From: Woeseiaceae bacterium
GTDB taxonomy: Bacteria > Pseudomonadota > Gammaproteobacteria > Steroidobacterales > Woeseiaceae
Direction of reading: 5' to 3'
DNA: 58,272 bases
Assembly (NCBI GenBank): GCA_013001045.1
Contig: JABDNG010000123.1
Coordinates: 1-58,272 of the forward strand
The first letter of the stretch is position 1. Each line of letters opens with the position of its first letter. Shown here in pieces: positions 3,001 to 48,465 of the stretch. Both the position numbers and the translations under genes were made by a program. The notes beneath the pieces were generated by a model. The model made no database searches. It had not been told where the DNA came from and saw nothing but the letters and a program-made list of their open reading frames with translations.

Positions 3001-5180
3001 AACGTGCTATAGGTTTGAATGACTTCGGGGTTGGGATACGCAGCCGACGGTGCGAATCCGTCGTTGACGGCGGGGTAATTAGGGTCGTGGCCCCAGATAT
3101 TTGCGACGCCACCGGCCATTGTGGAATGCCAGAGACCGCGCCTGGTTAACTCCATCGTGTAATCTTTGAGCGGAAATACATTATCCCGAATGCGAAAACG
3201 GTCCTCCGAGAAAACCGCCTGACCGGGCAGCGCATTCAACGCGTTCACATAGACGTCATAGCTGGGTCGGTGATGTTCATAGCTGGAGTAATCCATCTGC
3301 GCGTTCCAGCCAAGAAACGGCACGTGATCACCGTCGGTATTCGGACCACTCGCGCGTGCACCCAGCAAATGTGGCCAGCCAAGATGCTCGTGCATGAACG
3401 TCACCCAGGTCCCAAGCTCGGCTTCCGTCACCCATTCGTCGAGGTCAGAGCCATATCCCATGGTCCAACCGGGAAGCGGGCCGAGCCGGGCTGCAATGTA
3501 GCGCTGCAGACGCTGATCTTCCGCGCCATTCAGGCCCCAAGGCGTGGGTGTCTGGCCATCGGCCTCATCTCCCCACGCCCAGATGTGTACCGTTCCACCC
3601 GCCTCGTAGACCTTGGTGATGAACATCTCTAACGCTTCGAATGTGCGCGGATCAGGATCAGGTACAACAATATCGTCGGAGTGCTTTTTATCTATATCGA
3701 ACCAGTAGTTGGCCCCTGGAATATGAAAGCCATTGAAGCCGTGCTCAACGATGAATGTGTTTATATCGGCGTCGACTTGTGCCGGATTCTCGAAAAAGAA
3801 GTCGGGCATGGCGTACATGACGAGTTGTGGCACGAATGCATCGCTCGACCCACTCCAGGTCCAGCGCGTGCCATTGTTGCTGACGAATCCGCGAGCTTCG
3901 GGTGCTGAATTGGGGAGGATGTTTACCGTTCCGTTTTCACCGTCAAGATCGATGTCGTCGCTGACAGTGGTGAAGGTCCATTCCCCGACCTCGGTTCCCG
4001 AAAAACGGAACTTCCAGCTGTTGTTGCCGCTGTAGAACATCTCGGTCGTATGCGTCCTGCCACTTGCCGTGTGCACAAATGTCGCGCTGGCGATGACATC
4101 GAACGGATTTCCGGACCAGCTTGTATCTTGCAGCTCCCACTCGAGGTAGGGAATCCAGAGCGTGCCGTCGGCGTCCAGTGGAGGAGACGTGACCGTGATC
4201 GAGACGCTCGCCGCCACACTCGTGAACTCACCGTCATCGACCGTGAACGTGAAGCTGTCGGCACCGACGTAACCACTGTTCGGCGTGTAGGTGACATCCG
4301 GCGCCGTGCCACTCAAGCTGCCATTACTCGGTGCGCTCGCGATCGCAAACGTCAACGGATCGGATTCCGGGTCCGAACCCGTCAGCGTAATCGCCAGCGG
4401 CGTATCTGCAGCCGTCGACACCGCCTGCTCATCCGCCGTCGGCGCCGTGTTCACCCCTGGTGCCATGGCTTCATACAGCGCAAACACCTCTGCATCGCTC
4501 AACGTGAGGTCGTAAATCTGTATCTCGTCGAGCGTGCCCGTGAAAAACCGGCTCATCGAGCCGTTCTTCTCGCGCGCACCGAAGGTGTGCAGCCCGCTGT
4601 TGGCATCGAGACTGCCCTGCACCGCCGTATCGGTCGCCTCGGCCACACCGTCGACGTAGACCGTCAGCCCCTGCGGCGACCAGGCGCAGGCAACGTGCGT
4701 CCACTCGCCGAGAGTGGCAACCGACGTGCTGTCAATCGATCCATTGTTGTGATTGCTGCGGCACTGCCAGCGATTGTTCACCGTAATGAGAACCTGGAAC
4801 GTCCGGAATTTACCGGGAGCGTTCCAATGCCCGTACAAAGTCTGATCATTCGCGGCATTGAGCTGCCCGGGCTTGGCCCACAGTGCCACGGTGGCGCCGG
4901 GCCAGCTGCTGAAATCCAGCGCCGGCGAGTCCGCAATACTCACATAGTCGTTGCTGCCGTTGAAGTCGAGGGCCGCAGCGCTGACCCCTGTGCCCCAGCT
5001 GGTTCCCACCAGCGTGCCGTCGTTGTTTCCGATCGCATCCGCCGTGGTGGTGCCGGCGCCCTCGTCCAGTTGCCAGTATGCCGTCGGAACCGGCTGTGCG
5101 AAGACTGTCGCCAGTGGCACAAGCAAAACGAAAAGCAGCAGCGCAAAACGGACCCCTGTGATTCTTGTCACCGCGGTCAC
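1..5180 (-). CDS. Giant secreted multidomain protein: LamG, glycoside-hydrolase-like, PKD, serine hydrolase and FN3 domains (3' end outside window)
   Basis: The reading frame stays open from about 5219 to the left edge, giving roughly 1726 residues with no stop. There is no ATG, so the start is a GTG at 5180 or 5171; an in-frame TGA lies just upstream at 5222. From GTG 5180 the order is: signal peptide (1-29, ending VFA-Q), LamG-like domain (30-235), cadherin/Ig-like domain (238-330), DUF5060-like beta domain (333-427), TIM-barrel-like glycoside hydrolase region (433-797), FN3 (827-910), two PKD repeats (913-1087), a beta-lactamase-family serine hydrolase (1097-1407) with an SxxK motif (SLRK, S1159 and K1162), a YSD motif in place of YxN and a GGHYI stretch, then FN3-type modules to the edge. 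It is probably exported and acts on a polysaccharide, perhaps the product of this locus. The substrate is unknown. The fold calls rest on motif recognition only. Confidence 0.8.
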   Translation of the reverse strand, partial: MTAVTRITGVRFALLLFVLLVPLATVFAQPVPTAYWQLDEGAGTTTADAIGNNDGTLVGTSWGTGVSAAALDFNGSNDYVSIADSPALDFSSWPGATVALWAKPGQLNAANDQTLYGHWNAPGKFRTFQVLITVNNRWQCRSNHNNGSIDSTSVATLGEWTHVACAWSPQGLTVYVDGVAEATDTAVQGSLDANSGLHTFGAREKNGSMSRFFTGTLDEIQIYDLTLSDAEVFALYEAMAPGVNTAPTADEQAVSTAADTPLAITLTGSDPESDPLTFAIASAPSNGSLSGTAPDVTYTPNSGYVGADSFTFTVDDGEFTSVAASVSITVTSPPLDADGTLWIPYLEWELQDTSWSGNPFDVIASATFVHTASGRTHTTEMFYSGNNSWKFRFSGTEVGEWTFTTVSDDIDLDGENGTVNILPNSAPEARGFVSNNGTRWTWSGSSDAFVPQLVMYAMPDFFFENPAQVDADINTFIVEHGFNGFHIPGANYWFDIDKKHSDDIVVPDPDPRTFEALEMFITKVYEAGGTVHIWAWGDEADGQTPTPWGLNGAEDQRLQRYIAARLGPLPGWTMGYGSDLDEWVTEAELGTWVTFMHEHLGWPHLLGARASGPNTDGDHVPFLGWNAQMDYSSYEHHRPSYDVYVNALNALPGQAVFSEDRFRIRDNVFPLKDYTMELTRRGLWHSTMAGGVANIWGHDPNYPAVNDGFAPSAAYPNPEVIQTYSTFFATRYGQDVTRCNNLTDGYALCYPGNEQYIFYKEDSDSIQIDLSAMATPQSAKAVDTASIYQEIDLGVLTAANQTWQAPYVSDWAVAVGDFGQTRTDSTPPSVPQGLSGTALSDSEIMLDWQAATDPRSGVSHYVVYRYGVEIGTSTSLSFTDANLTALTSYTYTVTAVNNANLESSFSEAITLTTLQAPPVADAGGPYAGDEGSGITLDGSGSTDADDDIVAYEWDFDGDDAYNDASGVNATYNAVASGVYTIGLRVTDGAGASDTATATVTVNNVAPTADAGGPYDGLVGIDVVLDASASSDPGNDIVAYDWDLNNDGSYDDASGISTTFNSAASGAFLVGLRVTDADGAIDAATATISVGQQAPAGSYYPPPGESVANQFPSTPEEVGLSASIVTDLGAVITAGRWALWRHGYLVHVAGDFNTNSEVKSLRKTIHAATVGAGIERGFIPSLDEKISVWNPELSGLDADATWFQTLTQTTAFDEPALAPGSLWAYSDANPLQLNRALARAWGRADYTDDYDSVISDALFNAIGAQGWSTSAQADGIRLSMDLEDLGRAGLLLVSGGEWDGNRLMLSSFVDQLASKQTYGIPPNYDNANDGQTELLVEDFPESPYGLMTWVNTDRDLYPNSSANWAVALGVGGHYIAFNRDFGIVLAILDGDFAPIAGNPPGWPTPVRIAIEAVEQNVTGPNPRVILDTSPPSAPASASASALGQSVQVAWTAASDTESGIANYLIYRGTIANGAKSQVGLVDGSQAGYLDTSTAAATTYYYHVTAINGAGLEGASSEEASAITGDDPPAAPSGLGATGSNGEVSLDWLDNVEADLAGYRVYRSQTQGSGYSEIAGLVTASDYLDTAVINGTTYYYVVSAEDSAGNNSASSDEASATPLAADPPVLSNGQPTGVLPEGTTQVTMSLTSDVAAECRYDTVPGIDYTAMTSVFASTGGTSHSETVVGLVDGQSYSYYVRCAAPGGAPNNADFTISFSIDSPPAGNLSFTD

Positions 5181-5242
5181 AAAGCTACGACTATTTGCAT
5201 TGCTGGTGCGCCCTCGACGTCATCGCTTTTACTCTTCACTAC

Positions 5243-5352: not shown

Positions 5353-7278
5353 TCAGGCTTTTCGCATGCAGGACTGCAGCATCTCGGAAACCGAATCGAC
5401 TGATTCGCCTTCGAAGTACAGCCGTTGCAGGATTTCCAGGTTCAGCAAAATCCATAATCGGTAACTGTGGTCGACCTTGCCGGCGATGTGCTCACTGACA
5501 ATGTTGTTGACCTGCGCCTGGTGAAAAATACCCAGCTCGGCAAAACGGGAGTTGCCCAGGAGTTGCTCGAGAACGCCTGCAAGGTCCGTTCGCATCCAGG
5601 TACCGAGCGGAAACCCGAAACCCTGCTTGCGTCTTTTGACGATTTCCTTTGGCAAATAGCGACTGCCGACCTTGCGCAGAATGTGTTTCAGGCGCCCGTT
5701 CTTTAGCTTCAGTTTTGCCGGCAGGCGCGCCGCAAACTCGACGACCTGGTAGTCCACGAACGGTGCACGTACTTCGAGCGAGTGTGCCATCGACATGCGG
5801 TCGCCGATCACCAGGTTGTGATCCGGTACCCGCGTCATGAGATCCGTATGCAGCATGCGGTCAACCAGTTCGTTCGAATCGGTTGCATTGAAATGCGTCA
5901 GAATCTTGTCAATCGACTGGTAGTCTTCGATCTGCCCTTTAGCGCTTTCCGTGAACAGCGATTCTTTCGCCTGCGGCGTAAACCGCAGGAAGCTCATGCT
6001 CTCGGCATAGCGTTCGCCCGATGAAAACTGTGACATGGCCTGCACCCACGCGGTCTTTTGCGCGATGCTCTTATAAGCAAACGTCTCAGGGACTGCGTTA
6101 ATAATCGGTTTCATGATCGTGTTTCGAAACCAGGCCGGCAGCAGACAATAAAAATCAACGACGCGTTGCCCCGCGTAGCGGTCATACCCGGCAAAACTCT
6201 CATCCGCGCCGTCGCCGCTTAGGACGACCTTTACCGTTTCCCGTGCAAGCTCCGACACCAGGTACACCCCTACCCCGTACGGATCCGCAGGCTCATCCAT
6301 GTGGTAAAGCATGCGTGGCAGCAAACCGATCAGGTCGGCATGCACAACTTTTTCATGCTGTTCCATGCCGTATTTCTCGGCAACAATTTTCGCGGCCGGG
6401 AGTTCGTTGAAGCTGTGCTCTTGCACGCCGATCGAAAATGTCGGAATCGGCGAATCGGATCTCTGCGCCATCATCGAGGCGATCGTCGTTGAATCGATGC
6501 CGCCGCTCAGGAAACTGCCGACACGAACATCGCTTAGAAGGTGGGCTTCGACTGTCTCGCCCAATACGCTGTCGAGCCGCTCTACCAGTTCGTTTTCGCT
6601 ACCCGGCCACTTCTTGTCAAACGATATCGACCAGTATTTCGACAGCTCGACCTGCCCATTCTTGACGAACAAGGTTGACGCCGCCGGCAATTTTTTCACG
6701 CCTTTGAACAAGGAATACTGGTCCGGCATGAAACGCAATGACATGTAGTGCCACAGCCCTTCGAGACATAGCTCTGGAGTCACGAGCCCCGATGCGAACA
6801 GACCCTTTATCTCGGACGAGAAGACGAACGCATCGCCGTCCGAGTAATAGAACAGGGGTTTCTGCCCCATGTGGTCACGCCCGAGGAACATCGTCTCGGA
6901 GCGTGAGTCCCAGATCGCGAACGCGAACATTCCGCGAAGGTAGCTGACGCAGCGCTGCCCGTGTTCTTCGTAAAGATGCAGTATGACCTCTACGTCCGTG
7001 CGCGTTTTGAATCTGTGACCTTTGGCGATCAGCTCCTGGCGCAGCTGTGGGCTATTGTAAATCTCACCATTGCATACCAGCTGCAGGCTGTCGTCTTCGT
7101 TTGAAATCGGCTGGGCGCCGCCTTCGAGATCGATGATGCTCAGTCTTGTGTGCCCTAATGCAACCCCATCGTTCTCGTAATAGCCCACTCCGTCGGGCCC
7201 CCGGTGCGCGAGCGCTTCGGCCATTCCGCGTATTGAACCGCGATTCTGTTTCGAGACAATCCCTGCGATACCGCACAT
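5353..7278 (-). CDS. asnB: Asparagine synthase-type amidotransferase 1
   Basis: This 641-residue protein has both AsnB modules. The N-terminal class II glutamine amidotransferase starts MCGIAG, so Cys2 is the nucleophile after Met removal, and carries HRGPD and NGEIYN. The C-terminal ATP-pyrophosphatase domain has SGGIDS at residues 258-263. Full length and intact motifs suggest an active enzyme that uses glutamine ammonia to amidate a carboxylate activated by ATP. In EPS loci such enzymes are thought to amidate a uronic acid or related residue rather than make asparagine; the substrate here is unknown. It resembles amidotransferases linked to exosortase A loci. It is the last gene of the minus-strand run that begins at 12595, 18 bases after the epimerase gene. 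Confidence 0.9.
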   Translation of the reverse strand: MCGIAGIVSKQNRGSIRGMAEALAHRGPDGVGYYENDGVALGHTRLSIIDLEGGAQPISNEDDSLQLVCNGEIYNSPQLRQELIAKGHRFKTRTDVEVILHLYEEHGQRCVSYLRGMFAFAIWDSRSETMFLGRDHMGQKPLFYYSDGDAFVFSSEIKGLFASGLVTPELCLEGLWHYMSLRFMPDQYSLFKGVKKLPAASTLFVKNGQVELSKYWSISFDKKWPGSENELVERLDSVLGETVEAHLLSDVRVGSFLSGGIDSTTIASMMAQRSDSPIPTFSIGVQEHSFNELPAAKIVAEKYGMEQHEKVVHADLIGLLPRMLYHMDEPADPYGVGVYLVSELARETVKVVLSGDGADESFAGYDRYAGQRVVDFYCLLPAWFRNTIMKPIINAVPETFAYKSIAQKTAWVQAMSQFSSGERYAESMSFLRFTPQAKESLFTESAKGQIEDYQSIDKILTHFNATDSNELVDRMLHTDLMTRVPDHNLVIGDRMSMAHSLEVRAPFVDYQVVEFAARLPAKLKLKNGRLKHILRKVGSRYLPKEIVKRRKQGFGFPLGTWMRTDLAGVLEQLLGNSRFAELGIFHQAQVNNIVSEHIAGKVDHSYRLWILLNLEILQRLYFEGESVDSVSEMLQSCMRKA

Positions 7279-9173: not shown

Positions 9174-10736
9174 TCATCGCGAGTCCGGCCTGGCTAGTTC
9201 TTCGCCCAAAGCGGCCAACTCTGCCTCTTTTCGGTCTTCGCGCCAAGCGAACGAGTCACAGATTTTTGGCGCCAGTCGCAACGCCAGGTCCGGACTTTCC
9301 CACAAATCGGTACGGCGAAACACAACATCTCGCAGGTTCATGGGCGATTCGTCCGCGACAAGCCTGCCGAGGCCTTCCCGGTAGCGCTGATTTGCACCGT
9401 CGTCCGAGAAATCAACGGTGCCGGATTGCCAGGCCTGCGCGGCGTGGGGACGCGGAGAGCCGGAACCGCCGCCAGCTCGTTTAGCGCCGAACACCTTGTC
9501 CAGTGTATGGGCAGCGACCCGGCGCGCCGTCGTAAACTTGACGCCGCAGATGCTGACAAGCCCACGAGGACCACCCGATTTCGAATGATCCACTACCGCC
9601 GGTTTCGTCGACAGGCGCGCGGAGTGCGGGCCGGCCGCGGGCAGCAAACCCGCGAATACGCGCTCAACATTGGCGGGGGTCAACGCGAGTCCTGGCACTG
9701 AAGCATTGATGTCGTCTAATGTTGCCTCGATTTGTTCGCCTGAAGTACTGGGATTGTCGACCGCACCGTTCCATGGCGCGTGGCCGGTACCGATTAATAG
9801 CCTGCCCTTCCACGGATGCAGAAAATACGTCGGTCCGCCTGCGCGTGGCGGCGTCAGCGCCAGGGCGCACTCCGACAGTGCGGGTTTGTCTGTAAGTATG
9901 TTCCAGGCCAGAGACGGCCAAAACCAGCGATCGGCTTTGCCGCCCATCTTCTCCGCCATATCTTCCGACCATGGACCCGCTGAATTGATAACGACAGGCG
10001 CACGAAATGACCATTCGGATCCAGACTCCCTGTCCTGCGCCACGACGCCGCCTACGACATTGTCCTTGATCGACAATGCAGAAACCTGCATGTAATTGGC
10101 CGCGTCCGCTCCGTAGTGGGCGGCCCATCGCAGCAGTTCCATAACCACTCGCTGGGAATCCGGGATCGCTGCGTCGTGCCATAGCGCGGCACCCTGTAGA
10201 TTCGTCGCGTCGACGTCTGGAAACGCGGCGACGGTCTCCGCTTTGCTGATGACTTTTCCACGTGGAATTGATCTGTCTTCCCGCACACCGTCATTTCGAT
10301 TGATGGACAGCAAGTCATTAATCAGCATGGCTGCCCGGAAAATCGATTTGCGCCGAACGCCTTTTCCGTACAAAGGCATCAGGCACGGCAACGGACTGAC
10401 CAGATCCGGGAAGTTGGCGAGAAACCAGCGGCGTTCTTGCACCGATTCGACGTGGCGTTTCAAATCAAGCGTCTGCAGGTACCTGAGGCCGCCGTGCACA
10501 ATGCGCAAGCTGTTAAAACTCGTGGCGCCACCGAAATCTTCCCGCTCGAGCAACAGCGGTCGCAATCCGCGCAGTACTGCCTCGAGCGTCAGCATGACGC
10601 CATAGATACCGCCCCCCACGATGATGAGGTCGTAGTCACGCTGACTATATAACTCCGGCTGTCTGACAATTGCGATTTTGTTACACCTTTTTTTGCGATG
10701 GCGCAGAATCAGCGACTTGTGGAAGCACGCAGCCAC
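9174..10736 (-). CDS. FAD-dependent oxidoreductase, glycerol-3-phosphate dehydrogenase (GlpD)-like
   Basis: The protein has the dinucleotide-binding motif DLIIVGGGIYG, then GGATSFNSLRIVHGGLRYLQ, which matches the FAD-contacting segment of GlpD-type enzymes (usually ...SSKLIHGGLRYL). A DAO fold follows, with a C-terminal region that looks like the GlpD cap. In GlpD the reaction is glycerol-3-phosphate to dihydroxyacetone phosphate with electrons passed to quinone. Here, inside an EPS locus, the substrate may be a polyol phosphate or a sugar derivative. The start is unclear: ATG 10772 and GTG 10736 both lie inside the upstream amidotransferase gene, which ends at 10709, and no normal start codon lies between that stop and the FAD motif. 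It therefore overlaps asnB by at least about 28 bases. Confidence 0.75.
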   Translation of the reverse strand: MAACFHKSLILRHRKKRCNKIAIVRQPELYSQRDYDLIIVGGGIYGVMLTLEAVLRGLRPLLLEREDFGGATSFNSLRIVHGGLRYLQTLDLKRHVESVQERRWFLANFPDLVSPLPCLMPLYGKGVRRKSIFRAAMLINDLLSINRNDGVREDRSIPRGKVISKAETVAAFPDVDATNLQGAALWHDAAIPDSQRVVMELLRWAAHYGADAANYMQVSALSIKDNVVGGVVAQDRESGSEWSFRAPVVINSAGPWSEDMAEKMGGKADRWFWPSLAWNILTDKPALSECALALTPPRAGGPTYFLHPWKGRLLIGTGHAPWNGAVDNPSTSGEQIEATLDDINASVPGLALTPANVERVFAGLLPAAGPHSARLSTKPAVVDHSKSGGPRGLVSICGVKFTTARRVAAHTLDKVFGAKRAGGGSGSPRPHAAQAWQSGTVDFSDDGANQRYREGLGRLVADESPMNLRDVVFRRTDLWESPDLALRLAPKICDSFAWREDRKEAELAALGEELARPDSR

Positions 10737-12595
10737 TTGTCCTGCCAGGCCTCGAAAACAATCAACGACCAAAGCACGTGACTGTGGTTTGCCAGACCGG
10801 AAAGATGTTGCTGTTTTAGCGTTTCGATGGTTCCGACATCAAACAAACCCGCATCACGGATGCGCGAGCCGCCGAGCAGCTCATCGAGTAAGGGCCGAAA
10901 TTGCGTGCCCAACCAGTTCTTGATCGGAATACTGAAGCCCTCTTTCTGGCGATAGACGCAGCTTGCCGGAACATGGCGTGCCGCGATTTCTTTCAACATG
11001 ACCTTGGTCTTGCCTTTATTGACCTTCAACGTGTCCGGCACTCGAAACGCCAGTTCAACGAGTTCCTTGTCGAGGTACGGCACTCGTGCCTCCAGCGATA
11101 CGGCCATCGACATTCGGTCGACCTTGGTCAAAATGTTGTCGCTCAGGTAACTCTTGACGTCGACATAGAGACTCCTGTCCAGATCACTACGGTCTCCGGC
11201 GCGATCGAAAAGTGCGACTATGTGCGCATCCGCCGGCGTCCGCAAGTCTTGCAACGCATCGCCGCTAAACAGCGCATCCCGGGTTTTGTTGTCGAGAAAC
11301 TTGCGCCATCTGCAGTGCTGCAGCTCGGGCGACAGCGCCGCGCCCTCGATGAATCGCTTCGCCTTGTTTATCAGGCCCTTTTTCGCGGCCCTGGGCCGCA
11401 GCCGGTTGACCACCGGTTCAATCATGCCTTTGCGCACAGCCGCCGGAATCGCCTCATATCGGTGGGCCATTGCATTTGCGACGTACGTCTCATATCCGCC
11501 GAACAGTTCGTCGGCACCGTCGCCACTCAACGCAACCGTGACATGTTTGCGAGCAAGCCTGGAAACCAGGAACGTGGGAAATATCGAAAAGTCCCCGATC
11601 GGATCGTCCAGGTGAAACATCAGGGAGTCAAAAAGATCGACGACGTGCGGCTGAATGACTTCGGTGATGTGATCGAGACCAAGGTGTTCCGCGACCTCTT
11701 TGGAATAACTCAGTTCATTATAGGACGGATCATCAAAGCCGATGCTAAATGTCTGCGCACGGCCCATCGCCGATGCGACGATTGACGAATCTACTCCGCC
11801 AGATAGAAATGCCCCCAGCGGAACGTCGCTGACCATTTGTGCCCGAACGCTTTCGACGATTTTGTGCTCCACTTCATCCGCCCAGTCCGCGTCGTTTCGC
11901 GCCGAGCCCGGACTCTCAGGAATATCCCAGTACTCGACCAGGCTCGATTGACCCGTGTTCAGGTCGAGGCTCAGCATTTCCCCGGGTTTGAGCTTGTGCA
12001 CGCCCTTCATCATCGTGTCCGCACCGGGCACGTACTCCCAGGTCAGAAACTGGTTTACGGCATCCACATTGAGCTCCGGCCTGAACAGACCGCTGGCCAA
12101 CAAAACCTTGACCTCCGAACCCCAGACCAGAAAGTCATCGGTAAGCATGTAGTAAAGCGGCTTAATGCCCAGGTGATCGCGGACTAGGTGTAACGTGTTC
12201 GCCCTGGAATCGTGCAGGGCGATCGCGAACATGCCGTTGAGGTGGTTCGGGAAATCTGCGCCATACTCCTCGTACGCATGCACGATAGACTCGGTATCGC
12301 TGGACGTACCGAACGTATGCCCCTTGCTGCTCAGCTCCTTGCGCAACTCCCTGTAATTATAAATCTCGCCGTTGAATACGGTGCGAACGCTCCTGTCCTC
12401 ATTGAAGATAGGTTGCTTGCCGCCGGCCACATCAATAATCGACAGGCGTCGCATTCCCAATCCGACGTTATCGGCGATGCCGATACCGTCATCATCGGGC
12501 CCTCGGTGACGGATCACCGAACACATGCGTTCCAGCTGATCGTGCGTGACGCGTGAACTTCCGGAAAGACTTGCGACGCCGGCTATGCCGCACAT
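10709..12595 (-). CDS. asnB: Asparagine synthase-type amidotransferase 2
   Basis: A 628-residue AsnB family protein. The class II glutaminase domain begins MCGIAG (Cys2) with RHRGPD and NGEIYN; the synthetase domain has SGGVDS at residues 265-270 and the later LSGDGADELFGGY motif. All key residues are present. It is the promoter-proximal gene of the minus-strand group 5353-12595, and its 3' end overlaps the oxidoreductase frame. Its sequence differs clearly from the other three copies in the window, so it is probably not a recent duplicate. Its likely role is amidation of a carboxyl group in the EPS precursor; the substrate is unknown. Confidence 0.9.
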   Translation of the reverse strand: MCGIAGVASLSGSSRVTHDQLERMCSVIRHRGPDDDGIGIADNVGLGMRRLSIIDVAGGKQPIFNEDRSVRTVFNGEIYNYRELRKELSSKGHTFGTSSDTESIVHAYEEYGADFPNHLNGMFAIALHDSRANTLHLVRDHLGIKPLYYMLTDDFLVWGSEVKVLLASGLFRPELNVDAVNQFLTWEYVPGADTMMKGVHKLKPGEMLSLDLNTGQSSLVEYWDIPESPGSARNDADWADEVEHKIVESVRAQMVSDVPLGAFLSGGVDSSIVASAMGRAQTFSIGFDDPSYNELSYSKEVAEHLGLDHITEVIQPHVVDLFDSLMFHLDDPIGDFSIFPTFLVSRLARKHVTVALSGDGADELFGGYETYVANAMAHRYEAIPAAVRKGMIEPVVNRLRPRAAKKGLINKAKRFIEGAALSPELQHCRWRKFLDNKTRDALFSGDALQDLRTPADAHIVALFDRAGDRSDLDRSLYVDVKSYLSDNILTKVDRMSMAVSLEARVPYLDKELVELAFRVPDTLKVNKGKTKVMLKEIAARHVPASCVYRQKEGFSIPIKNWLGTQFRPLLDELLGGSRIRDAGLFDVGTIETLKQQHLSGLANHSHVLWSLIVFEAWQDKWLRASTSR

Positions 12596-12707
12596 TAGCG
12601 AAGGCCGTTCCGCAATGTCTTTGCATTATCAAGGAATTGCATAAGCTCAGTATCTGCCTCTTGGTGCCCGGAGGAGCGATCTTACTACTCCCGGCAGCCA
12701 CAAGTTA

Positions 12708-12721
12708 GTGACCAGGGTCAC
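12708..12721. promoter_or_regulatory. Palindromic operator-like site
   Basis: GTGACC and GGTCAC are exact reverse complements separated by AG, a typical dyad for a dimeric regulator. It runs directly into the 44-bp block shared with the wza-like promoter region. It lies about 113 bases upstream of the amidotransferase start at 12595. Confidence 0.5.
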
Positions 12722-12760
12722 CTGATTCGCTGTGAAACTTGTCAAGGTTTTCGATTTCAT
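12717..12760. repeat. Conserved regulatory block, copy 1
   Basis: The block reads GTCAC, nine bases, TGTGAAA, a variable triplet, GTCA, one base, then GGTTTTCGATTTCAT. The last 30 bases match copy 2 (18608-18637) at 27 positions, and GTCAC has the same spacing in both copies. Conservation in two non-coding gaps 5.9 kb apart points to a shared regulator site. Confidence 0.6.
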
Positions 12761-12954
12761 CCTGTATATCGGGCGTCGCACTGACACAGCTCACGCCGGA
12801 AAAGGCATAATCAGGCGCTACCATGGATAGATTGTTCAGAAGTTTCCGGCGGAATTCCAGACCAGTATCACAGCGTAAGGTCACTTAAGCACTTTATAAT
12901 CGCCATGCACTATCATGATTGCGCCACTTTGAACCCGATCTGCACAGTTGTATA

Positions 12955-12988
12955 TCGCATTAGGACGCATGCAAATGAGGTAATGCGA
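12955..12988. repeat. 8-bp inverted repeat
   Basis: TCGCATTA (12955-12962) and TAATGCGA (12981-12988) are perfect complements around 18 bases. This could be an operator or a hairpin. No run of T follows, so it is not a typical terminator. Confidence 0.35.
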
Positions 12989-13264
12989 GCCAATGTTCAG
13001 TGTTTTTTTGAACCTTGGGCAATCGAGCAAAAAGTCTGATAGCCTCGAAATCCGGTTTAGCCGTTTGATAAATAATAGCTATCGTAGATCTTGAGATAGA
13101 TAGATTATGTCGACAGTTCGCCGAAAAGGATTGAGTAAGTGAGTATTGCAAAGCGGCCTGCGAATGCTGGTTGCAGCAGCGATATAGATCATCCTGTATC
13201 GGCTTATCCCGTTCAGCGACGTTATCGACAGGATAGCCGTGGTCAACTTTAGGAATTGATTCGT

Positions 13265-14392
13265 ATGCGAGTTTGTTTAATTTGTGTTGAGTTCTTCATT
13301 AACAAGTCTGGTGGTTTCGGTCGTGCGACGCGTACGATAGGCCGGGAGTTGGCAAAACGCGGAGTCGAGGTTTATGCCATCGTTCCTCGTCAAGGTGATC
13401 AAGGACCAAAAGAGGTTCACGACGGCGTGACGGTTCTCGCTTTTCCAAAAACTCGACCATGGGAGGCGGCCGATCTCGCTCGCGAAGTTAATGCGGATGT
13501 ATATCATTCGTGTGAGCCTTCCATGATCACCGTATTTGCAATGCGAGCAATGCCACTCAAAAGACATGTTGTAACGTTTCGCGATCCTCGAAACTGGGAT
13601 GACTGGGTGAAAGAATTTGAAAAGCCGGCTCGGAGTAAAATGCAGGTCGTATCGAACTGGCTTTTTGAGGCGAATAGCCTGGTGAAGCGGGCAGTTCGTC
13701 GCGCCGACGGTGTTTATAGCATTGGTCATTATTTGGTTCCTAAGATCAAAGGCATTTACGACGTCGACAGTGAGTTTCTTCCAACTCCCGTTGATGTACC
13801 GGCCGCAAGGCAGAAAGCCAGCGTCCCGACCGTCGGCTGGTTGGCTCGCTGGGACCCGGTAAAGCGTCCTGAGATTTTCCTGCAACTTGTGGAAAAGTTT
13901 CCTGACGTGCAATTCAAATTTGCAGGGTCCGCACTCGATCAAGAATGGGTTCGGCATTTGAAGGACACCTACGGCTCGGCGCCCAACCTGGACTGGGTCG
14001 GACGAATCGATCAATTCCGTGATCCCGAAGCGCATTCGGCATTTCTTGACGATGCCTGGATAATGGTCAACGCGTCCACCAAGGAAGCCATGCCAAATGC
14101 ATTTATAGAGGCGGCCGCGCATGGATGCGCAATTCTGTCCGGCCTGGACCCGGATAATTTCGCATCTAAGTTCGGGTATTACGTTGAGCGCACTCACGGT
14201 AGTAAATACCCGGACTCCGATGACTTTGCGCGCGGATTGAAGTGGTTACTCGAGGAGCGCCGTTGGCAAGAACGCGGCGAACTTGCTAGAAATCATGTCA
14301 GGGAAAACTTCGAAACTGAAGTCTCAATGCGGCTTCACATTCAAATGTATAACCATCACTTGAATCGGAAACCTGCGGCCAAAACTGACTAA
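13265..14392 (+). CDS. Glycosyltransferase family 4
   Basis: A 375-residue GT-B glycosyltransferase. The N-terminal domain begins RVCLICVEFF and has the glycine-rich acceptor loop (SGGFGRATR). The C-terminal domain has VGWLARWDPVKRP, typical of the nucleotide-sugar domain, and KEAMPNAFIEAAAHG, matching the E-x7-E donor-binding motif. ATG 13265 is chosen because AGGA (13251-13254) lies 10 bases upstream; a TTG at 13256 is open but less likely. It stands alone on the plus strand and converges with the deacetylase gene. It probably adds one sugar to the lipid-linked repeat unit. Confidence 0.85.
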   Translation: MRVCLICVEFFINKSGGFGRATRTIGRELAKRGVEVYAIVPRQGDQGPKEVHDGVTVLAFPKTRPWEAADLAREVNADVYHSCEPSMITVFAMRAMPLKRHVVTFRDPRNWDDWVKEFEKPARSKMQVVSNWLFEANSLVKRAVRRADGVYSIGHYLVPKIKGIYDVDSEFLPTPVDVPAARQKASVPTVGWLARWDPVKRPEIFLQLVEKFPDVQFKFAGSALDQEWVRHLKDTYGSAPNLDWVGRIDQFRDPEAHSAFLDDAWIMVNASTKEAMPNAFIEAAAHGCAILSGLDPDNFASKFGYYVERTHGSKYPDSDDFARGLKWLLEERRWQERGELARNHVRENFETEVSMRLHIQMYNHHLNRKPAAKTD

Positions 14393-14435
14393 TCCGGCCA
14401 TCGAATACTGCAATTCGAACGCAGACAAACTGAGC

Positions 14436-15356
14436 TCAGAAAACTCTCCGGGACATCAAACGTCGTTCGCGTATCGCATACAGGTGTCTGGTCAGATACG
14501 CATAGATAAACCGTTTAGTGATCCGCGGCAGTCCCGTCAATTGCAAGCGTAGTTGATTCGTCGATATCGCACCCGGGACGTCCGCGACGATAGGCAACTG
14601 GTAGGGGTCTGTGTTCGGACCAACCCAGCCTGGCCGTGTAGTTCGCCCGGTCTTGTATCCGACGGCCCTGACCGCGTTTATCTCACGCTCTGAGTAGTCG
14701 CCGTACGGAAAGCTGAAATGCTCGCATGTCTGAGCTGTCAATTCTTCAATACGCGATCGAGATTCTTCCGCTTCCTTTACTAATTCGGCCTCATTCAAAG
14801 TCACCATGCTGAAGTGATAGCGGCCATGGGACTGATAATCAAATTGATGCGCAATGGCCGATAACTCGCTCTTGCTCAGGGCCTCGCGGCCCTCGTATTC
14901 ACGGTCTGGCGTGTAATCAGCCTCGTCGCGAAGCTTCTCAAGTAGCCTGGTGTTTTCGACTAACCGTAGACGCTTCGATCGACCGCCATCCAGTTTCGAC
15001 CAGAAGCGTCGTTGCGTTCCCACCACATGACTACACAAATATAAAGTCGGTATCACTCCGTATCGTTCACAGATCGCAGCAAGCTCTGTGTTGCGACGAT
15101 AACCATCGTCAAGGTGCAAAACAATTGCATTGCTGGGCATATCCGACCAATCTCGCGATATCAATGCACCGACCAGACGTTCAAAGGGAACGACGTTGTA
15201 GTGCGTCGTCAGATAATCGAGGTGGGTGTCAAAAACCGACGGCTCCGGATCGTGATACAGGAGGATACCGGCTTTACGCTGATTCAAATTTCTTATTACG
15301 GCTGGAATGCCAAGGGCTGCGATGACAGATGAAATTATTTCTTTCGCGGTATTCAT
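14436..15356 (-). CDS. Polysaccharide deacetylase (NodB/CE4 family)
   Basis: The 306-residue protein contains the CE4 motifs in order: LHLDDGY (usual form TFDDG, giving the catalytic and metal-binding aspartates), YQSHGRYH (metal-binding H-x3-H) and FSFPYGDYS. Enzymes of this family remove N- or O-acetyl groups from polysaccharides with a divalent metal. No clear signal peptide is seen; a short hydrophobic stretch (SSVIAALGIPAVI) lies at the N-terminus and could be an anchor. It converges with the GT4 gene at 13265. It probably deacetylates an N-acetylhexosamine in the EPS. Confidence 0.85.
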   Translation of the reverse strand: MNTAKEIISSVIAALGIPAVIRNLNQRKAGILLYHDPEPSVFDTHLDYLTTHYNVVPFERLVGALISRDWSDMPSNAIVLHLDDGYRRNTELAAICERYGVIPTLYLCSHVVGTQRRFWSKLDGGRSKRLRLVENTRLLEKLRDEADYTPDREYEGREALSKSELSAIAHQFDYQSHGRYHFSMVTLNEAELVKEAEESRSRIEELTAQTCEHFSFPYGDYSEREINAVRAVGYKTGRTTRPGWVGPNTDPYQLPIVADVPGAISTNQLRLQLTGLPRITKRFIYAYLTRHLYAIRERRLMSRRVF

Positions 15357-15465
15357 ACGACTCTTAATTAGGTAGTAGGTGGCAATTCGAAGCGCAAATA
15401 ACGGCTCCGAACGCCCACCTTAAGTTAGTTCCGGTTATTCCCACCGTGACTATAAATAATTGATA

Positions 15466-16305
15466 TTAATCAAGCTTTGCAATTAGGCCTATAGGAGTTG
15501 GTTTCGTCTGCTCGACTGCGATCCATTTGCAACTAAAAGACTCGGTGGCTTCAATAAACGCATCGGTGATCAATAGATTTGAAATAAGTACGCCGCCTGG
15601 TCGCATGCTGGCCAGAATAGTGCAAAGGTCGCCTAATTGATTATCGTAGCTGGACGCAGAGTCATACAAAAAAACGTCTACGGACCCGAGTTTCTTTAAC
15701 AGACGCGGAAGCACTATGGCACTCGGGCCAAGTTCAAGGTGCCATCGGGTTCGCAATGACTGTGGTATTTTTTCTCCGACCTGTCGAGTGTAACCAATGT
15801 ATAAGCTCGGCATTTCAATGCTGTAGAGCTCTCCCATGCCATTCCTTTCGAGTGCATCAAGCATGGCGGCGCTCGTAAATCCCTTGGCGACGCCAGTCTC
15901 AATCACGACTTCTGGCTTCAATAAACGACATACAATGTGTACGGCTCGCATCAGTTGCGGCGACGGGCCGTAAAAGAACTCGATTGGTCCCTCATTGTCG
16001 CCATCACTGTCCTCGTCGGAAATCGCGACGACCCATTCCTCGTGAACGCGCATTTTTTCGAGGATCTCGCTGCGCCCGAACTCGGCTACTTCTTCCGCCG
16101 TCGAATTCGTTATTAGCGCGATTGCCGCGTCTATAGCCTCGATGTTTGACTGGTACTCCGCAACTCGATTCTTGTGAAAACGGTTTTTATAGTATCTATA
16201 GTAAAAGGCGCGCGTACGATAATATGCCCACCGGGGTCGGACGAACGTTTCAAGTGCTAGAAATAAAAATGTTCTCGCAACATTGAGCAGTCCTTTCACT
16301 GACAT
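15466..16305 (-). CDS. SAM-dependent methyltransferase-like protein (Methyltransf_24 type)
   Basis: The 279-residue protein has a Rossmann core with VVIETGVAKGFTSAAML as motif I, LYSIEMP as the acidic second strand and VDVFLYDSASSY, typical of the Methyltransf_24/cephalosporin-hydroxylase-like group. The basic N-terminal 50 residues have a short hydrophobic stretch that may touch the membrane. It sits between the deacetylase and a GT4 gene, all on the minus strand. It probably methylates a sugar; the acceptor is unknown and the family is broad. Confidence 0.7.
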   Translation of the reverse strand: MSVKGLLNVARTFLFLALETFVRPRWAYYRTRAFYYRYYKNRFHKNRVAEYQSNIEAIDAAIALITNSTAEEVAEFGRSEILEKMRVHEEWVVAISDEDSDGDNEGPIEFFYGPSPQLMRAVHIVCRLLKPEVVIETGVAKGFTSAAMLDALERNGMGELYSIEMPSLYIGYTRQVGEKIPQSLRTRWHLELGPSAIVLPRLLKKLGSVDVFLYDSASSYDNQLGDLCTILASMRPGGVLISNLLITDAFIEATESFSCKWIAVEQTKPTPIGLIAKLD

Positions 16306-16411
16306 TCACGACTCCCATTTTCTTGAGATCGTTATATCGAAATTCAGCTGTACAAGAGCACTATCCCTACATCCCGCGAATAATTTCACTGCAAATAATC
16401 GACACGCTGCA

Positions 16412-17599
16412 TTAGTCATCCGAGAAAAGTGCGTTTAACAACGTGCCCAATTTCCCTACATACAATTCTCTGGAATATTCTCTTTCGTACAGCCGCTTCG
16501 CGTTTTCCGCTTTCTCTTTTGCAGCACCGTCTGACATTGCCGCGAGCATCGACGCGCCAAACGCGTCCGGATCCGGGTCGGCCAGGAATGCCACGTCGTC
16601 GTTCAGAACCTGCGTATGTGAATAGATGTTTGTCGCCACCTGAGGAATGCCGCTTGCGAGTTGCTGATAGACTTTTAGCGGCGTATTTGTTCCTGCCGTG
16701 CGTGGAGACAATAGTGTGCTCGCCGACTGCATGTACTGATGCGCCTGCCGCTGAGGAACTGTGCCTGTAAAATGGCAATGCTCTTCCAGCCCTTCAGCGC
16801 GCGCGAGGCTCCTGTAATGCTCGACCTGTGCGTCGGTGCCTCCCACAACGAGAAGGAAAGCACGTGGCTGTTGTCGCACTACGTTCGCAAATGACCTGAC
16901 TAGCAAATCGATCCCTTGATAGGTCTCAAGGGTGCCCGCATACACAAAGCAAAAGCGATCGGTCGGCAGCTCGAATGTGCCCGTCGACGATGGCTGTCCC
17001 TCTGAAGGCTCGTCATCTACTTTGAGCTTCACGGGCTCGAAGATGGAGTTTTCGATCAAGAAGTGTTTGGCGGGATCCGTGATGATCTGAGTAGCGTAAT
17101 TCGCGATATCCGGGCAAATGGTGATAACCGCATCAGCTGCATTGATTGAACTATTCTCGAGCTTTTCGAAAATATAGCGAATAATTCGTGAATCCGTGAA
17201 ATCAAAATTGGTTAATTGTTGAGGCAGGCTCGAATGCATGTCGTAAATGAGCTTAAACCTGAAGATCGGCTTCAGGAAACGGCAGAAGAATACAGCCTCT
17301 TCGTGGGCATCGACAAAATCGTAACGATTCCTTAACAGTCGGCCGACAGTGCGTGCCGCTACGAAAACATCCAAAAATAGCTTGAGTAAAGATGGACCGG
17401 TCTTGACTCTTCCGAGCCAGGCTAACCTGGGACCACGAAATATGCGTAGGTTCGGAATGTCCGGGTCCGTGCCTTCCCCGTAGGTCACCAAATCAATTTT
17501 CACGCCAAGCTCAGACAGAACAAGCGTTCGATAATAAACGCTGAGCGGCGTTCCTCTCGGCGTGAAAAACGGTTGTGGGGCAACTACCAGGCAGCGCAT
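16412..17599 (-). CDS. Glycosyltransferase family 4
   Basis: A 395-residue GT-B protein. The N-terminus MRCLVVAPQPFFTPRGTPLS matches the acceptor-side loop of GT4 enzymes in EPS loci. The C-terminal half has FVYAGTLETYQGIDLLV and SPRTAGTNTPLKVYQQLASG, the nucleotide-sugar site (a threonine-rich variant of E-x7-E). Its ATG overlaps the stop of the upstream PHP-like gene by one base (TGATG), so the two are translated together. It probably adds a sugar to the repeat unit on the cytoplasmic face. Confidence 0.85.
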   Translation of the reverse strand: MRCLVVAPQPFFTPRGTPLSVYYRTLVLSELGVKIDLVTYGEGTDPDIPNLRIFRGPRLAWLGRVKTGPSLLKLFLDVFVAARTVGRLLRNRYDFVDAHEEAVFFCRFLKPIFRFKLIYDMHSSLPQQLTNFDFTDSRIIRYIFEKLENSSINAADAVITICPDIANYATQIITDPAKHFLIENSIFEPVKLKVDDEPSEGQPSSTGTFELPTDRFCFVYAGTLETYQGIDLLVRSFANVVRQQPRAFLLVVGGTDAQVEHYRSLARAEGLEEHCHFTGTVPQRQAHQYMQSASTLLSPRTAGTNTPLKVYQQLASGIPQVATNIYSHTQVLNDDVAFLADPDPDAFGASMLAAMSDGAAKEKAENAKRLYEREYSRELYVGKLGTLLNALFSDD

Positions 17600-18477
17600 C
17601 AGATTGCTTGCCGCCGGCTGCTTATTCGCGTTACGTATTGCATAGCGACCTGATTACGCAAGAAGCGTAGGGGCGATTCCAGGGATCCAAAGTGATGAAT
17701 ATCATCATTTTCCTGTTGCAAGATGGCGCGCAGCCCGGTCCATACACTCTCGCCATCGGACACGTTATCAACGTAGAAGCCGAACGACCCGGCTCTATCA
17801 TACTCGGATGAAAAAGGCAGGGGATCGCTGCCTGGCAGGATCCGCATACCGAATCCTTGAGCCAACACGAATTCCGGCGGGTCCGTCATTATACTGGGTC
17901 GCCCGCTATTGTCGCCAAGGTACAACGAGCCGCCACCGAATTTGCGGATAAGATCTTCTACCACGCGACGTCGACGGCCCATCCATTTGCCAAATCCCCA
18001 AGGCAGTACGGGTATCGCACCGGAACTGGCGACCGATTCGACGATGTCCGCAGCTGCCTGTCCGTCCTCCCATTTTTCAAGCGAGCCCAGCGCCAGGATT
18101 TCCAATCTCTCTGCCGTAACAATCTGCCGACCAGCAACGATTTCGATTTCGCCCAGAACCGGGTGACTGGCGATCAGGCACCTGTCGTCACCGCTGTGCT
18201 CAAAACGCCACATGGCTTCAATCGTCCCTACAGCCTCAGACTTGTCGTCCGCGAGTCTTGAAAGTCCCGTAAACTCGTCAACTCCACAGGATTCCGTCAA
18301 ACACAAGACGTATCTTGGCTCGCCACCTGATACGAATCTTTCGGCATGATGCGAAAAGTTCGCCGCAGCCGCGCTGAGGAAGTCCTGAATACTGAAACAC
18401 CCATGAATATGAACATGTGCGTCCACAAACGCTCTAAAGCCGTGCTCTTTACGGATTTCTGGATCTTGACGTGTCAT
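17599..18477 (-). CDS. PHP-like metal-dependent hydrolase
   Basis: A 292-residue protein I assign to the PHP/amidohydrolase-like metal-binding group. It has DAHVHIHG near the N-terminus (HxH metal motif), an internal GAIPVLPWGFGKW strand, LYLGDNSGRP and a late GSDPLP motif. No signal peptide is present. It is translationally coupled to a GT4, which suggests a role in making or editing an EPS precursor, perhaps phosphate-ester cleavage. The exact reaction cannot be told. The gene begins near 18477 and is transcribed away from the wza-like gene. Confidence 0.55.
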   Translation of the reverse strand: MTRQDPEIRKEHGFRAFVDAHVHIHGCFSIQDFLSAAAANFSHHAERFVSGGEPRYVLCLTESCGVDEFTGLSRLADDKSEAVGTIEAMWRFEHSGDDRCLIASHPVLGEIEIVAGRQIVTAERLEILALGSLEKWEDGQAAADIVESVASSGAIPVLPWGFGKWMGRRRRVVEDLIRKFGGGSLYLGDNSGRPSIMTDPPEFVLAQGFGMRILPGSDPLPFSSEYDRAGSFGFYVDNVSDGESVWTGLRAILQQENDDIHHFGSLESPLRFLRNQVAMQYVTRISSRRQAI

Positions 18478-18593
18478 TTAAGTCCGCTCAGATGGGAGCA
18501 CATTCGATCTTGAGTCTTGATATTAGATGTTGGGTTTAGAGCGCGTTTATAGTATCAACAGTCCGGTAAATAGGCACGAAACTGGCCGACTGA

Positions 18594-18637
18594 GTCACTG
18601 AATTATATGTGAAATTCGTCACGGTTTTCGATTTCAT
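18594..18637. repeat. Conserved regulatory block, copy 2
   Basis: This is the second copy of the block at 12717: GTCAC (18594-18598), nine bases, then a 30-base core (18608-18637) with 27 matches. Within it TGAAAT and ATTTCA are inverted repeats, and GTGA-N6-TCAC forms another dyad. It ends 10 bases before a sigma-54-like promoter. Confidence 0.6.
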
Positions 18638-18646
18638 GTTGGGCGT

Positions 18647-18662
18647 TGGGCAATACTTTGCT
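18647..18662 (+). promoter_or_regulatory. Sigma-54-like promoter of the wza-like gene
   Basis: The sequence TGGGCAATACTTTGCT has GG (18648-18649) and GC (18660-18661) separated by exactly 10 bases, the invariant sigma-54 spacing, with a good TTTGCT -12 element. Transcription would start near 18672. This is downstream of an in-frame ATG at 18665 and so supports ATG 18764 as the start. Confidence 0.6.
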
Positions 18663-18763
18663 GCATGAGCCAGTCCAACCCGTCAAAAGCTGTTTTCACT
18701 TCCTGCAAAGGTTTATACTTCGGGGCCCTGGCACTCAATATTGCAGCAAGAGATCCTGACACG

Positions 18764-19345
18764 ATGAAAAAACGAGCTAAATTGTACGTCATAGCCACAC
18801 TCGGAATCGCGTTTCTGACAAGCTTTGGCGAGGGCATTGCCCAGGATTCGAGTGTATCGAGAGCCAGCTACAAGATATTGCCTGGCGATGTCTTGCAGGT
18901 ATCCGTCTGGAAAGAGCCTGATTTGCAGCTTGAGTTGCTCGTACGGCCTGACAACGCAGTCTCGTTTCCTCTCGCTGGCGAAATTTCGACCCACAATCGA
19001 TCCGTTTCGGACCTGCAGGCCGAATTGACAAGGCGCCTGGCTCGCTACATCGCTGACCCGGTTGTGACCGTATCTGTCAAAGAGGTATTGGGCAATAAGG
19101 TCTATGTAATCGGCCAGGTGAAAGAGCCGGGGGCTTTCGTCGTCAACCCGCAGGTCGACGTATTGCAAGCGCTTGCCATGGCAGGTGGTGCCACGCCGTT
19201 TGCGGATCTTGACAACATCAGGATCTTGCGTCGTAAAAACTCAATCCAGACCGCGTTGTCATTCGACTACAAAGATGTCATTCGCGGACGTGATCTTTCT
19301 CAAAACGTGATGTTGGAGAGCGGCGATGTTGTCGTCGTACCCTGA
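18764..19345 (+). CDS. Wza-like polysaccharide export protein
   Basis: The 193-residue protein starts at ATG 18764 with a signal peptide (MKKRAKLYVIATLGIAFLTSFGEGIAQ). No lipobox cysteine is visible. Then come the Poly_export domain (ASYKILPGDVLQVSVWKEP) and a SLBB-type segment (KVYVIGQVKEPGAFVVNPQVD). It lacks the extra SLBB repeats and long C-terminal helix of E. coli Wza, so it belongs to the short export-protein type found in exosortase-linked EPS loci. It probably forms the periplasmic/outer-membrane part of the export channel. The frame is open upstream to 18665, but that ATG lies before the predicted transcription start. Confidence 0.85.
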   Translation: MKKRAKLYVIATLGIAFLTSFGEGIAQDSSVSRASYKILPGDVLQVSVWKEPDLQLELLVRPDNAVSFPLAGEISTHNRSVSDLQAELTRRLARYIADPVVTVSVKEVLGNKVYVIGQVKEPGAFVVNPQVDVLQALAMAGGATPFADLDNIRILRRKNSIQTALSFDYKDVIRGRDLSQNVMLESGDVVVVP

Positions 19346-27248: not shown

Positions 27249-29150
27249 ATGTGCGGCATAGCGGGAATTGTCGGTACAGGTTCAAGCATGGAACAGCTTG
27301 AGCGCATGGCTGCAAGCCAGGCCCACAGGGGTCCCGATCACACAGGCTTCCTGCTCGATGATGAAGTGGCGTTCACGCATCAGCGCCTATCTATCGTCGA
27401 TCTGGATGCTCGTAGCCACCAGCCGATGACGAAGGGCTCACTGACAATCGTTTTTAACGGCGAGATCTACAATTTCCGCGAACTTCGGGCACAGTTGGAG
27501 CGAGACGCGACGTTCACCACAACCTCGGACACTGAAGTGGTCCTGGAGGCTTGGCGAAAATGGGGCCCCGCATGCCTGCAAAAACTGCGCGGCATGTATG
27601 CCCTGGCAATCCATGATGCGACGATGAAAGAGACGTTCATTGTACGCGATCCGTTCGGTATCAAGCCGCTCTTCTATTCGCCGATAGCCGGCGGTGGATT
27701 GGCCTTCGCTTCCGAGCTGAAGACCCTCGAGGCGCACAACGCCGATCGGCTGAGCGTGAATCCGGAGGCGGTCCTTGCGTCGTTGTTATACGTCTGGATA
27801 CCGGAGAACCTGTGCATATGGAACGAGGTCCACAAACTTGCCCCGGGCCACTACCTGCACGTCGTACGGGGCGGCACGTTTTCCCTGGTGCGCTACTGGC
27901 AGCCACTCGACCATATCGAGGACCAGCCGAGTTTGGTCGATGAAAGCACAGCCATCGATGCGCTGGAACGCTGCCTGAAGTCGTCAGTGGACGCACACCT
28001 GATTGCCGACGTACCCGTTAATTCGTTTCTTAGCGGTGGGCTGGATTCGAGTTTGATTGTCGCCATGGCACGCGAAGAGCTCGACACACTCGACTGTTAC
28101 ACGATCAAATTCACCGAAGAGGCCAAGAAGCACGAAGCAATGCCCGACGACGCGTTCTATGCCACAAAGGTTGCCAACGCGCTCAAGGTCAAACTGAATG
28201 TCATCGAAGTGCAGCCCGATATCACGGAGCTACTGCCAAAGATCGTCCATCATCTTGACGAACCGGTCGGCGACTCAGCCGCGATAAACACCTTGCTGAT
28301 TTGTGAGGCTGCCCACGCGAACGGCGTCAAGGTCCTGCTCTCAGGTATGGGAGCAGACGAGCTTTTCGGCGGCTACCGTAAGCACCTTGCCAATCAATTC
28401 GCCGCCAGGTATCGAATCCTGCCGTCTGCCCTGCGGCGGTCGCTAATCGCTCCGCTCGTCAGACGACTACCTGTTGCATCCGCCAAGGGGGGCTTCCGCG
28501 TCGCCCGCTGGGCACGTCGGTTCGTCGATTTCGCCGACCTCAATGAGGCCGATGCGTTCTTGCGCAGCTACAGTTATTTTAGCCCGGACGAGCTTGCCGA
28601 GCTTGCAGGCTCCCGGTCGACGGCGGCCATCGGCCGTATCGTCGATCATCACCATTCGCTGTTCACGGCATTGGCAGGCCGCAGCCTGCTCGATCGTATG
28701 TGTTATACCGATACACAGCATTTCATGACCTCCCTGAACCTGAGCTACACGGATCGCGCCAGCATGGCGGCGTCGACGGAGGTTCGCGTGCCTTTCATCG
28801 ACAAGGAAGTCATGCAGGTTGCGTTTCAGATTAGTAGCAAACTGAAGATCAAGGGACGTACCGCAAAGTACGTCCTCAAGAAGGTGGCCGAGCGATGGTT
28901 GCCAAAGGAGATTATCTACCGTCCGAAAGCCTCATTCACGATGCCGCTCCGCGCGTGGATCAAGTCCGACCTGCGAGAAATCATCGACGATTATGTCCTG
29001 TCGCCCCAGGGTCTCGCGGGTCGCGGTCTGCTTGATGGCAAAATATTACGGGAAATTGTTGAGGCAGACCGTGCTGGGAAGGCTGACAATGCGCAGCGAA
29101 TCTGGCAATTCCTTACACTCGAACAATGGCTCCGCAACAAGAATGTCTAG
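27249..29150 (+). CDS. asnB: Asparagine synthase-type amidotransferase 3
   Basis: A 633-residue AsnB family protein: MCGIAG start (Cys2), AHRGPD, NGEIYN and SGGLDSS at residues 262-268, with LSGMGADELFGGY further on (the third copy's variant of SGDGADE). All catalytic features are in place. It opens a plus-strand run with a GT4 and the two-domain oxidoreductase, and lies opposite the heparinase gene across 282 bases. The conserved neighbourhood suggests it amidates a uronic acid product of the oxidoreductase, but this is inference. Confidence 0.9.
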   Translation: MCGIAGIVGTGSSMEQLERMAASQAHRGPDHTGFLLDDEVAFTHQRLSIVDLDARSHQPMTKGSLTIVFNGEIYNFRELRAQLERDATFTTTSDTEVVLEAWRKWGPACLQKLRGMYALAIHDATMKETFIVRDPFGIKPLFYSPIAGGGLAFASELKTLEAHNADRLSVNPEAVLASLLYVWIPENLCIWNEVHKLAPGHYLHVVRGGTFSLVRYWQPLDHIEDQPSLVDESTAIDALERCLKSSVDAHLIADVPVNSFLSGGLDSSLIVAMAREELDTLDCYTIKFTEEAKKHEAMPDDAFYATKVANALKVKLNVIEVQPDITELLPKIVHHLDEPVGDSAAINTLLICEAAHANGVKVLLSGMGADELFGGYRKHLANQFAARYRILPSALRRSLIAPLVRRLPVASAKGGFRVARWARRFVDFADLNEADAFLRSYSYFSPDELAELAGSRSTAAIGRIVDHHHSLFTALAGRSLLDRMCYTDTQHFMTSLNLSYTDRASMAASTEVRVPFIDKEVMQVAFQISSKLKIKGRTAKYVLKKVAERWLPKEIIYRPKASFTMPLRAWIKSDLREIIDDYVLSPQGLAGRGLLDGKILREIVEADRAGKADNAQRIWQFLTLEQWLRNKNV

Positions 29151-48252: not shown

Positions 48253-48262
48253 AGACCGCCAT

Positions 48263-48268
48263 ATTATA
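48263..48268 (-). promoter_or_regulatory. TATAAT -10 element before the GT-C gene
   Basis: A perfect TATAAT on the minus strand lies 10 bases upstream of ATG 48252. No good -35 is found at 17 bases. If used, the mRNA would be nearly leaderless. Confidence 0.25.
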
Positions 48269-48465
48269 CGGGCAGGCACACGACCGAAGTGTGATTTTGC
48301 TCACGGGCAAAAACGGAACGTGCGCCGTAGAATAACGCGGAGTCCGGCAACGCTCTGGCTTGCCAGTCCCCAACCTTGTACTCTCTCGCCCTCGCAAGCT
48401 GGAAAAGACGCGTTTCGGCGCCGCTGCCGGACGCAAGAACTACCCATCGGAGACCCGACACCGCA

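Follow-up and report, generated by a model that had tools for sequence, protein, structure and literature searches.

The 44-bp block that occurs twice in the window, a 58,272-nt stretch of DNA from a Woeseiaceae bacterium, most likely serves as a docking site for CRP, a common bacterial nutrient sensor. Among the readings considered, an extended CRP (Vfr-like) operator with a short adjoining GTGAC element, acting leftward, probably explains the block best. The regulator is thus likely to be CRP rather than PrsR together with sigma-54, and the probable targets are the two gene units to the left of the copies. The block is a real, functional-looking operator of an already known kind and belongs to an ordinary class of regulatory sites.

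Two copies of the block in non-coding gaps

The coordinates and letters of the two copies in the preliminary description are correct (Table 1). Their 30-bp cores (12731-12760 and 18608-18637; TGTGAAAnTnGTCAnGGTTTTCGATTTCAT) agree at 27 of 30 bases, with a GTCAC 14 bases upstream of the core in both cases, as had been described. Identity over the whole block is 35/44 (80%), and the likeness between the two window copies ends at the 44-bp limits. On the plus strand, copy 1 reads GTCAC-N9-TGTGA-AACTTG-TCAAG-GTTTTCG and copy 2 GTCAC-N9-TGTGA-AATTCG-TCACG-GTTTTCG. Both indeed lie within non-coding gaps (12596-13255 and 18478-18763, with 18764 as the likely start of the export gene), and the GTGACC/GGTCAC palindrome said to abut copy 1 is present (GTGACCAGGGTCAC, 12708-12721).

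Table 1. Features of the window that bear on the block
Feature	Position	Strand	Remarks
Block copy 1	12717..12760	-	CGAAAACCTTGACAAGTTTCACA-N9-GTGAC toward amidotransferase gene; profile 37.6 bits
Block copy 2	18594..18637	-	CGAAAACCGTGACGAATTTCACA-N9-GTGAC toward 17599-18477 gene; profile 39.2 bits
Operator B of copy 1, CRP-type	12731..12746	-	TGTGAAACTTGTCAAG on + strand; 8/10 to TGTGA-N6-TCACA
Operator of copy 2, CRP-type	18608..18623	-	TGTGAAATTCGTCACG on + strand; 9/10
Second CRP-type dyad beside copy 1	12707..12722	.	AGTGACCAGGGTCACC; inner GTGA-N6-TCAC perfect, 8/10
Sigma-54-like sequence	18647..18661	+	TGGGCAATACTTTGC; judged a chance match
Sigma-70-like promoter, export gene	18690..18721	+	CTGTT..CACTTCC.GCAAA.GT.TATACTTC kept in window and G002; TATACT at 18714-18719
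Polysaccharide export (Wza/EpsE-type) gene	18764..19345	+	possible divergent target of copy 2
DAHVHIH-motif gene	17599..18477	-	PHP/amidohydrolase-like by motif alone; likely first target of copy 2
GT4-family glycosyltransferase gene	16412..17599	-	second gene of unit; directly before amidotransferase in G040 and G054
Asparagine-synthase-like amidotransferase gene	10709..12595	-	TIGR01536 above cut-off, XrtA model TIGR03108 below; likely first target of copy 1

In 100 shuffled versions of the window that preserved dinucleotides, the core was never matched at three or fewer mismatches. The search for further copies proposed earlier was run on the organism's own draft genome (2.6 Mb, 78% complete) and returned these two only, with no third in the draft even for a looser pattern, so that a mobile or dispersed repeat was rejected. 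With up to three mismatches allowed, the core was absent from all 98 relatives scanned. A wide family built on the 3' half of the block (GTCANNGTTTTCGATTTCAT) was rejected as well: a scan of 84,980 species genomes with this shortened pattern gave 14 scattered exact matches in unrelated phyla, a chance-like result, with ~7-8 expected by our own estimate.

A CRP-type operator inside the block

Read leftward, the core takes the form CGAAAACC-(G/T)TGA-N6-TCACA. It fits the CRP operator TGTGA-N6-TCACA plus A/T flanks, a consensus derived from 269 experimentally identified sites of E. coli (PMC2633013), and since the core is a CRP-type site, its GGTTTTCG portion can be read as an A/T flank. The dyad matches the consensus at 9/10 positions in copy 2 and in the related blocks of the congeners G002 and G032, at 8/10 in copy 1, and at 10/10 at the corresponding promoters of G040, G054 and G100. 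The second dyad next to copy 1 is centred 24 bp from the centre of operator B, upstream of the dyad of copy 1.

The genome also encodes a CRP orthologue, which scores 319.6 bits against NF008732 (NCBIfam cut-off 266), aligns over its full length with the structure chains of E. coli CRP and P. aeruginosa Vfr, and has the recognition helix GCSRE..GR.LK in common with E. coli CRP. The block thus shares with the CRP/CAP/Vfr operators of gammaproteobacteria the TGTGA-N6-TCACA dyad, the A/T flanks, an intergenic site and a CRP orthologue in the genome, as well as the placement of the dyad centre ~80-145 bp before the start codons of the 17599-gene and amidotransferase units. It differs from them in that four of the sites add a GTGAC 9 bp away and a strictly kept CGAAAA flank. 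As a counter-point to the CRP reading, operator B of copy 1 reaches just 8/10 of the consensus, with one half degenerate.

Conservation of the site in relatives

The closest congener that has an export-gene orthologue, G002 (77% identity), carries GTCAC-N9-TGTGA-N6-TCACGGTTTTCG between this orthologue and a divergent gene for a LamG-type surface lipoprotein. When a strict composite pattern was run over 73 genomes of the genus, mismatch-free matches were found only in the two window copies and in G002, and a three-mismatch form in G032, where the block likewise precedes an orthologue of the LamG lipoprotein (58% identity, 309 aa). The dyad centre lies 225 bp from the start of the lipoprotein gene in both species. 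In a profile made from these four blocks, the members score 37.6-39.3 bits and the runners-up in the genus at most 19 bits; among the latter are CRP-type sites flanked in the same way, such as GCCGAAAATGTGACGTACCTCACAGTTTTCGGC in G037. Many one-mismatch matches to the pattern in the genus fall within coding sequence.

The operator is also conserved at the promoter of the 17599-type gene. This gene was found in six genomes, in five of which its upstream region is on the contig, and a CRP match of at least 9/10 lies within 300 bp upstream at 4/5 of these testable promoters, compared with ~0.4-1.3% of such promoters in resampled sequence. The operator is thereby kept as a 9-10/10 match in four species, including perfect sites 101 bp (TGTGAACTGTGTCACA, G040) and 73 bp (TGTGACCCCGGTCACA, G054) before the first gene and upstream of the orthologue in G100 (TGTGACGCAAGTCACA). 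In G005, whose orthologue is the most distant one (34% identity), the promoter has no CRP site.

CRP-type sites also appear enriched in EPS regions. In gaps picked by export-gene or amidotransferase matches alone, with the motif unused, there were 4 sites of at least 9/10 in 6.7 kb, where random regions would give 0.62 (Poisson P 0.004, Fisher 0.02), and at 24 export-gene loci, with the window excluded, the count was 3 in 4.3 kb for an expectation of 0.39 (Poisson P 0.008, Fisher 0.02); the baseline behind these figures is small (3 sites in 32.4 kb), and the Fisher values (~0.02) are weaker than the Poisson ones. Half-site spacings other than 6 yield 0-1 matches in the EPS set. A larger count, 12 sites of at least 9/10 in 14.6 kb of gaps, gives no valid test because the regions were partly picked by profile matches.

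Two further places in the window carry such sequences. A CRP-type site (TGTGATTTTGCTCACG, 9/10) at 48290-48305 occupies the gap between an ORF at 46321-48279 (minus strand) and a wecB-like gene at 48376 (plus strand). At 5158-5181, two overlapping CRP-like dyads coincide with the start region of a gene (1-5180, minus strand) for a secreted LamG-type protein, whose GTG start lies near 5171 or 5180; this protein is related to the block-adjoining lipoproteins of G002 and G032.

Probable leftward targets and a proposed operon split

The preliminary description held that the copies stand next to unrelated genes and that common ancestry does not explain them. The first statement does not hold for the units to the left of both copies, which are parts of one operon in G040 and G054: there, the 17599-type gene, the GT4 glycosyltransferase gene, the amidotransferase gene and genes for an SDR and an FAD protein form a run on one strand, with a CRP site in front. 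The second is probably wrong for the promoters. In the window, genes at 13256-16305 break up this run. The first half has copy 2 ahead of it, the dyad centre lying 138 bp from the start, and the second half has copy 1, at 143 bp. Because the operon is split in the window and each half carries the block, the arrangement suggests that the units are halves of one operon whose promoter block was duplicated. A split operon with a copied promoter block would be the simplest account, although the duplication event is deduced from a stretch of just 44 bp. The 17599-18477 gene, conserved in the EPS operon, has no Pfam or NCBIfam match.

A recent short duplication that is functionless at one of its two places appears highly improbable: the copies do match beyond the operator (ATGAAAT, 7 bp), as a copied stretch would, and are just two in the genome, but two other species retain the block, their differences falling outside the invariant positions, and in relatives the genes that follow the two window copies belong to a single operon preceded by a CRP site.

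The earlier idea that one regulator governs both the export gene and the amidotransferase unit stands in part. A shared binding site is supported, with the amidotransferase unit as one of its places of action, but the export gene is doubtful as the second. Its start is probably at 18764, followed by a signal peptide (MKKRAKLYVIATLGIAFL), rather than at 18665, and it has its own conserved sigma-70-like promoter, whose distance from the block differs greatly between the window and G002. The block could also act rightward on the export gene; the leftward 17599-18477 gene, followed by the GT4 gene, is favoured because of orientation and conservation.

The EPS region of the window contains four asparagine-synthase-like amidotransferases (5353-7278, 10709-12595, 27249-29150 and 35513-37417), all of which score below the XrtA-specific cut-off of TIGR03108 and above that of TIGR01536.

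The GTGAC element and a possible composite operator

Each of the four full blocks, two in the window and one each in G002 and G032, has the GTGAC element 9 bases from the operator. The element falls outside the CRP site proper and is missing from G040, G054 and G046, so control of the operon in G040 and G054 does not require it. The element may represent the site of a second factor, a weak second CRP half-site or a trace of shared descent. One elaboration, which we regard as possible but rather doubtful, is a composite operator at which CRP acts with a second factor bound at GTGAC, defining a small regulon of EPS and surface-protein genes in one clade that would have reached the split operons and the LamG lipoprotein gene as the operator was copied whole.

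The fixed spacing of GTGAC across the four blocks could also point to a dedicated EPS regulator that recognises the entire 44-bp composite (CGAAAACC, dyad and GTGAC), perhaps with CRP as a partner, so that the CRP-like core would be part of a co-operative site; the second perfect GTGA-N6-TCAC dyad at the GTGAC position of copy 1 fits this reading too. However, plain CRP sites stand at the orthologous promoters of G040, G054 and G100, and the four blocks may share GTGAC by descent, so that we consider such a regulator unlikely.

Sigma-54 and PrsR

The preliminary description placed a sigma-54-like promoter beside copy 2 and suggested a PrsR-type regulator. PrsR, the enhancer-binding response regulator of the PEP-CTERM system, would then bind the block and drive the export gene from that promoter. 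The PrsK/PrsR system exists in the genome (PrsR, 696 bits to TIGR02915, cut-off 502.6; PrsK at 51186-53237 of the window, 603.5 bits, cut-off 300), and a GG-N10-GC sequence lies ~10 bp from copy 2. Yet this sequence is one of 546 matches of equal or better quality in the window, where 486 are expected, and it is not conserved in G002; we have therefore rejected it as a promoter. By visual inspection, copy 1 is without an obvious sigma-54-like counterpart. Furthermore, motif 1 of the published PEP-CTERM box has TTTACA at its end, with the sigma-54 motif following after ~63 nt (Haft 2006, PMC1569441), whereas neither TTTACA nor its complement occurs in the gap regions 12501-13256 and 18301-18800. 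The block thus resembles the PEP-CTERM box as a regulatory element amid XrtA-like EPS genes, with PrsK encoded in the window itself and PrsR elsewhere in the genome, but differs from it in position and sequence, in the missing TTTACA and in the lack of a conserved -24/-12 element. Control of the block by PrsR is accordingly very unlikely in our view.

PrsR is encoded on another contig, beside another NtrC-type regulator, so that prsK and prsR, usually a pair, are separated in this assembly. Two other readings were dropped after inspection by eye: a simple promoter inside the block (TTGTCA as -35) is found in copy 1 only, and a FleQ-type site (GTCA..TGAC) agrees weakly with copy 2 and not at all with copy 1.

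Proposed mechanism and implications

Returning to the CRP operator, we propose that, upon carbon limitation, CRP-cAMP would bind CGAAAACC(G/T)TGA-N6-TCACA and, as an activator rather than a repressor, help sigma-70 RNA polymerase start leftward at two units, with copy 2 serving the 17599-18477 gene and the GT4 glycosyltransferase gene and copy 1 the amidotransferase unit. In evolutionary terms, an ancestral single operon with one CRP site would have been split by inserted genes, and duplication of the block would have left both halves under the same control.

Candidate -10 elements lie at varying distances from the dyad centre. TATAAT is found 53 nt away in G002 and in G046 (in the latter before its own export gene), TAAGAT (copy 1) and TAAATT (G032), each a 4/6 match, 55 nt away, and CATAAT, common to G040 and G054, 41 nt away; the candidates of copy 2 lie at 60-65. 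Promoter architecture thus appears not to be uniform, and some cases are compatible with class-I-like activation, activation as such being a guess.

Control by cAMP-CRP is reported for the Klebsiella capsule (PMC3569464) and for Shewanella biofilm (PMC8938473). These systems are alike in tying surface polysaccharide or biofilm output to cAMP-CRP, whereas the present case concerns an XrtA-like cluster in a different genus and is predicted from sequence alone. The CRP reading predicts carbon-status (cAMP-CRP) control for an XrtA-like polysaccharide cluster in this genus, beside or in place of PrsK/PrsR and sigma-54. The window would offer a readable example of a split operon whose two halves have kept a common operator. 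The biology is familiar in kind, and the presumed history, an operon split and an operator copied, is modestly interesting.

Other candidate sites in the genus

In two congeners, a block of the form GTGAC-N5-TCAAGGTT(T/C)TCG lies upstream of orthologous GGDEF (diguanylate cyclase) genes (positions 1501-1522 of both loci, L057 and L071) and is more conserved than its immediate flanks. These promoters looked like further members, but with the gene present in two genomes only and profile scores of 13-14 bits, which is background, they stand as no more than a lead.

Three of the weaker profile matches, in G041, G107 and G058, lie near genes of one small secreted-protein family with the motif ..NGKSYHxNSSYxWNENN.., and a CRP-type site lies near the gene in all three genomes. 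The family may be a second CRP target in this genus. In G021, a CRP-type site precedes a gene with a similar-looking N-terminal region (NGRSHHLG).
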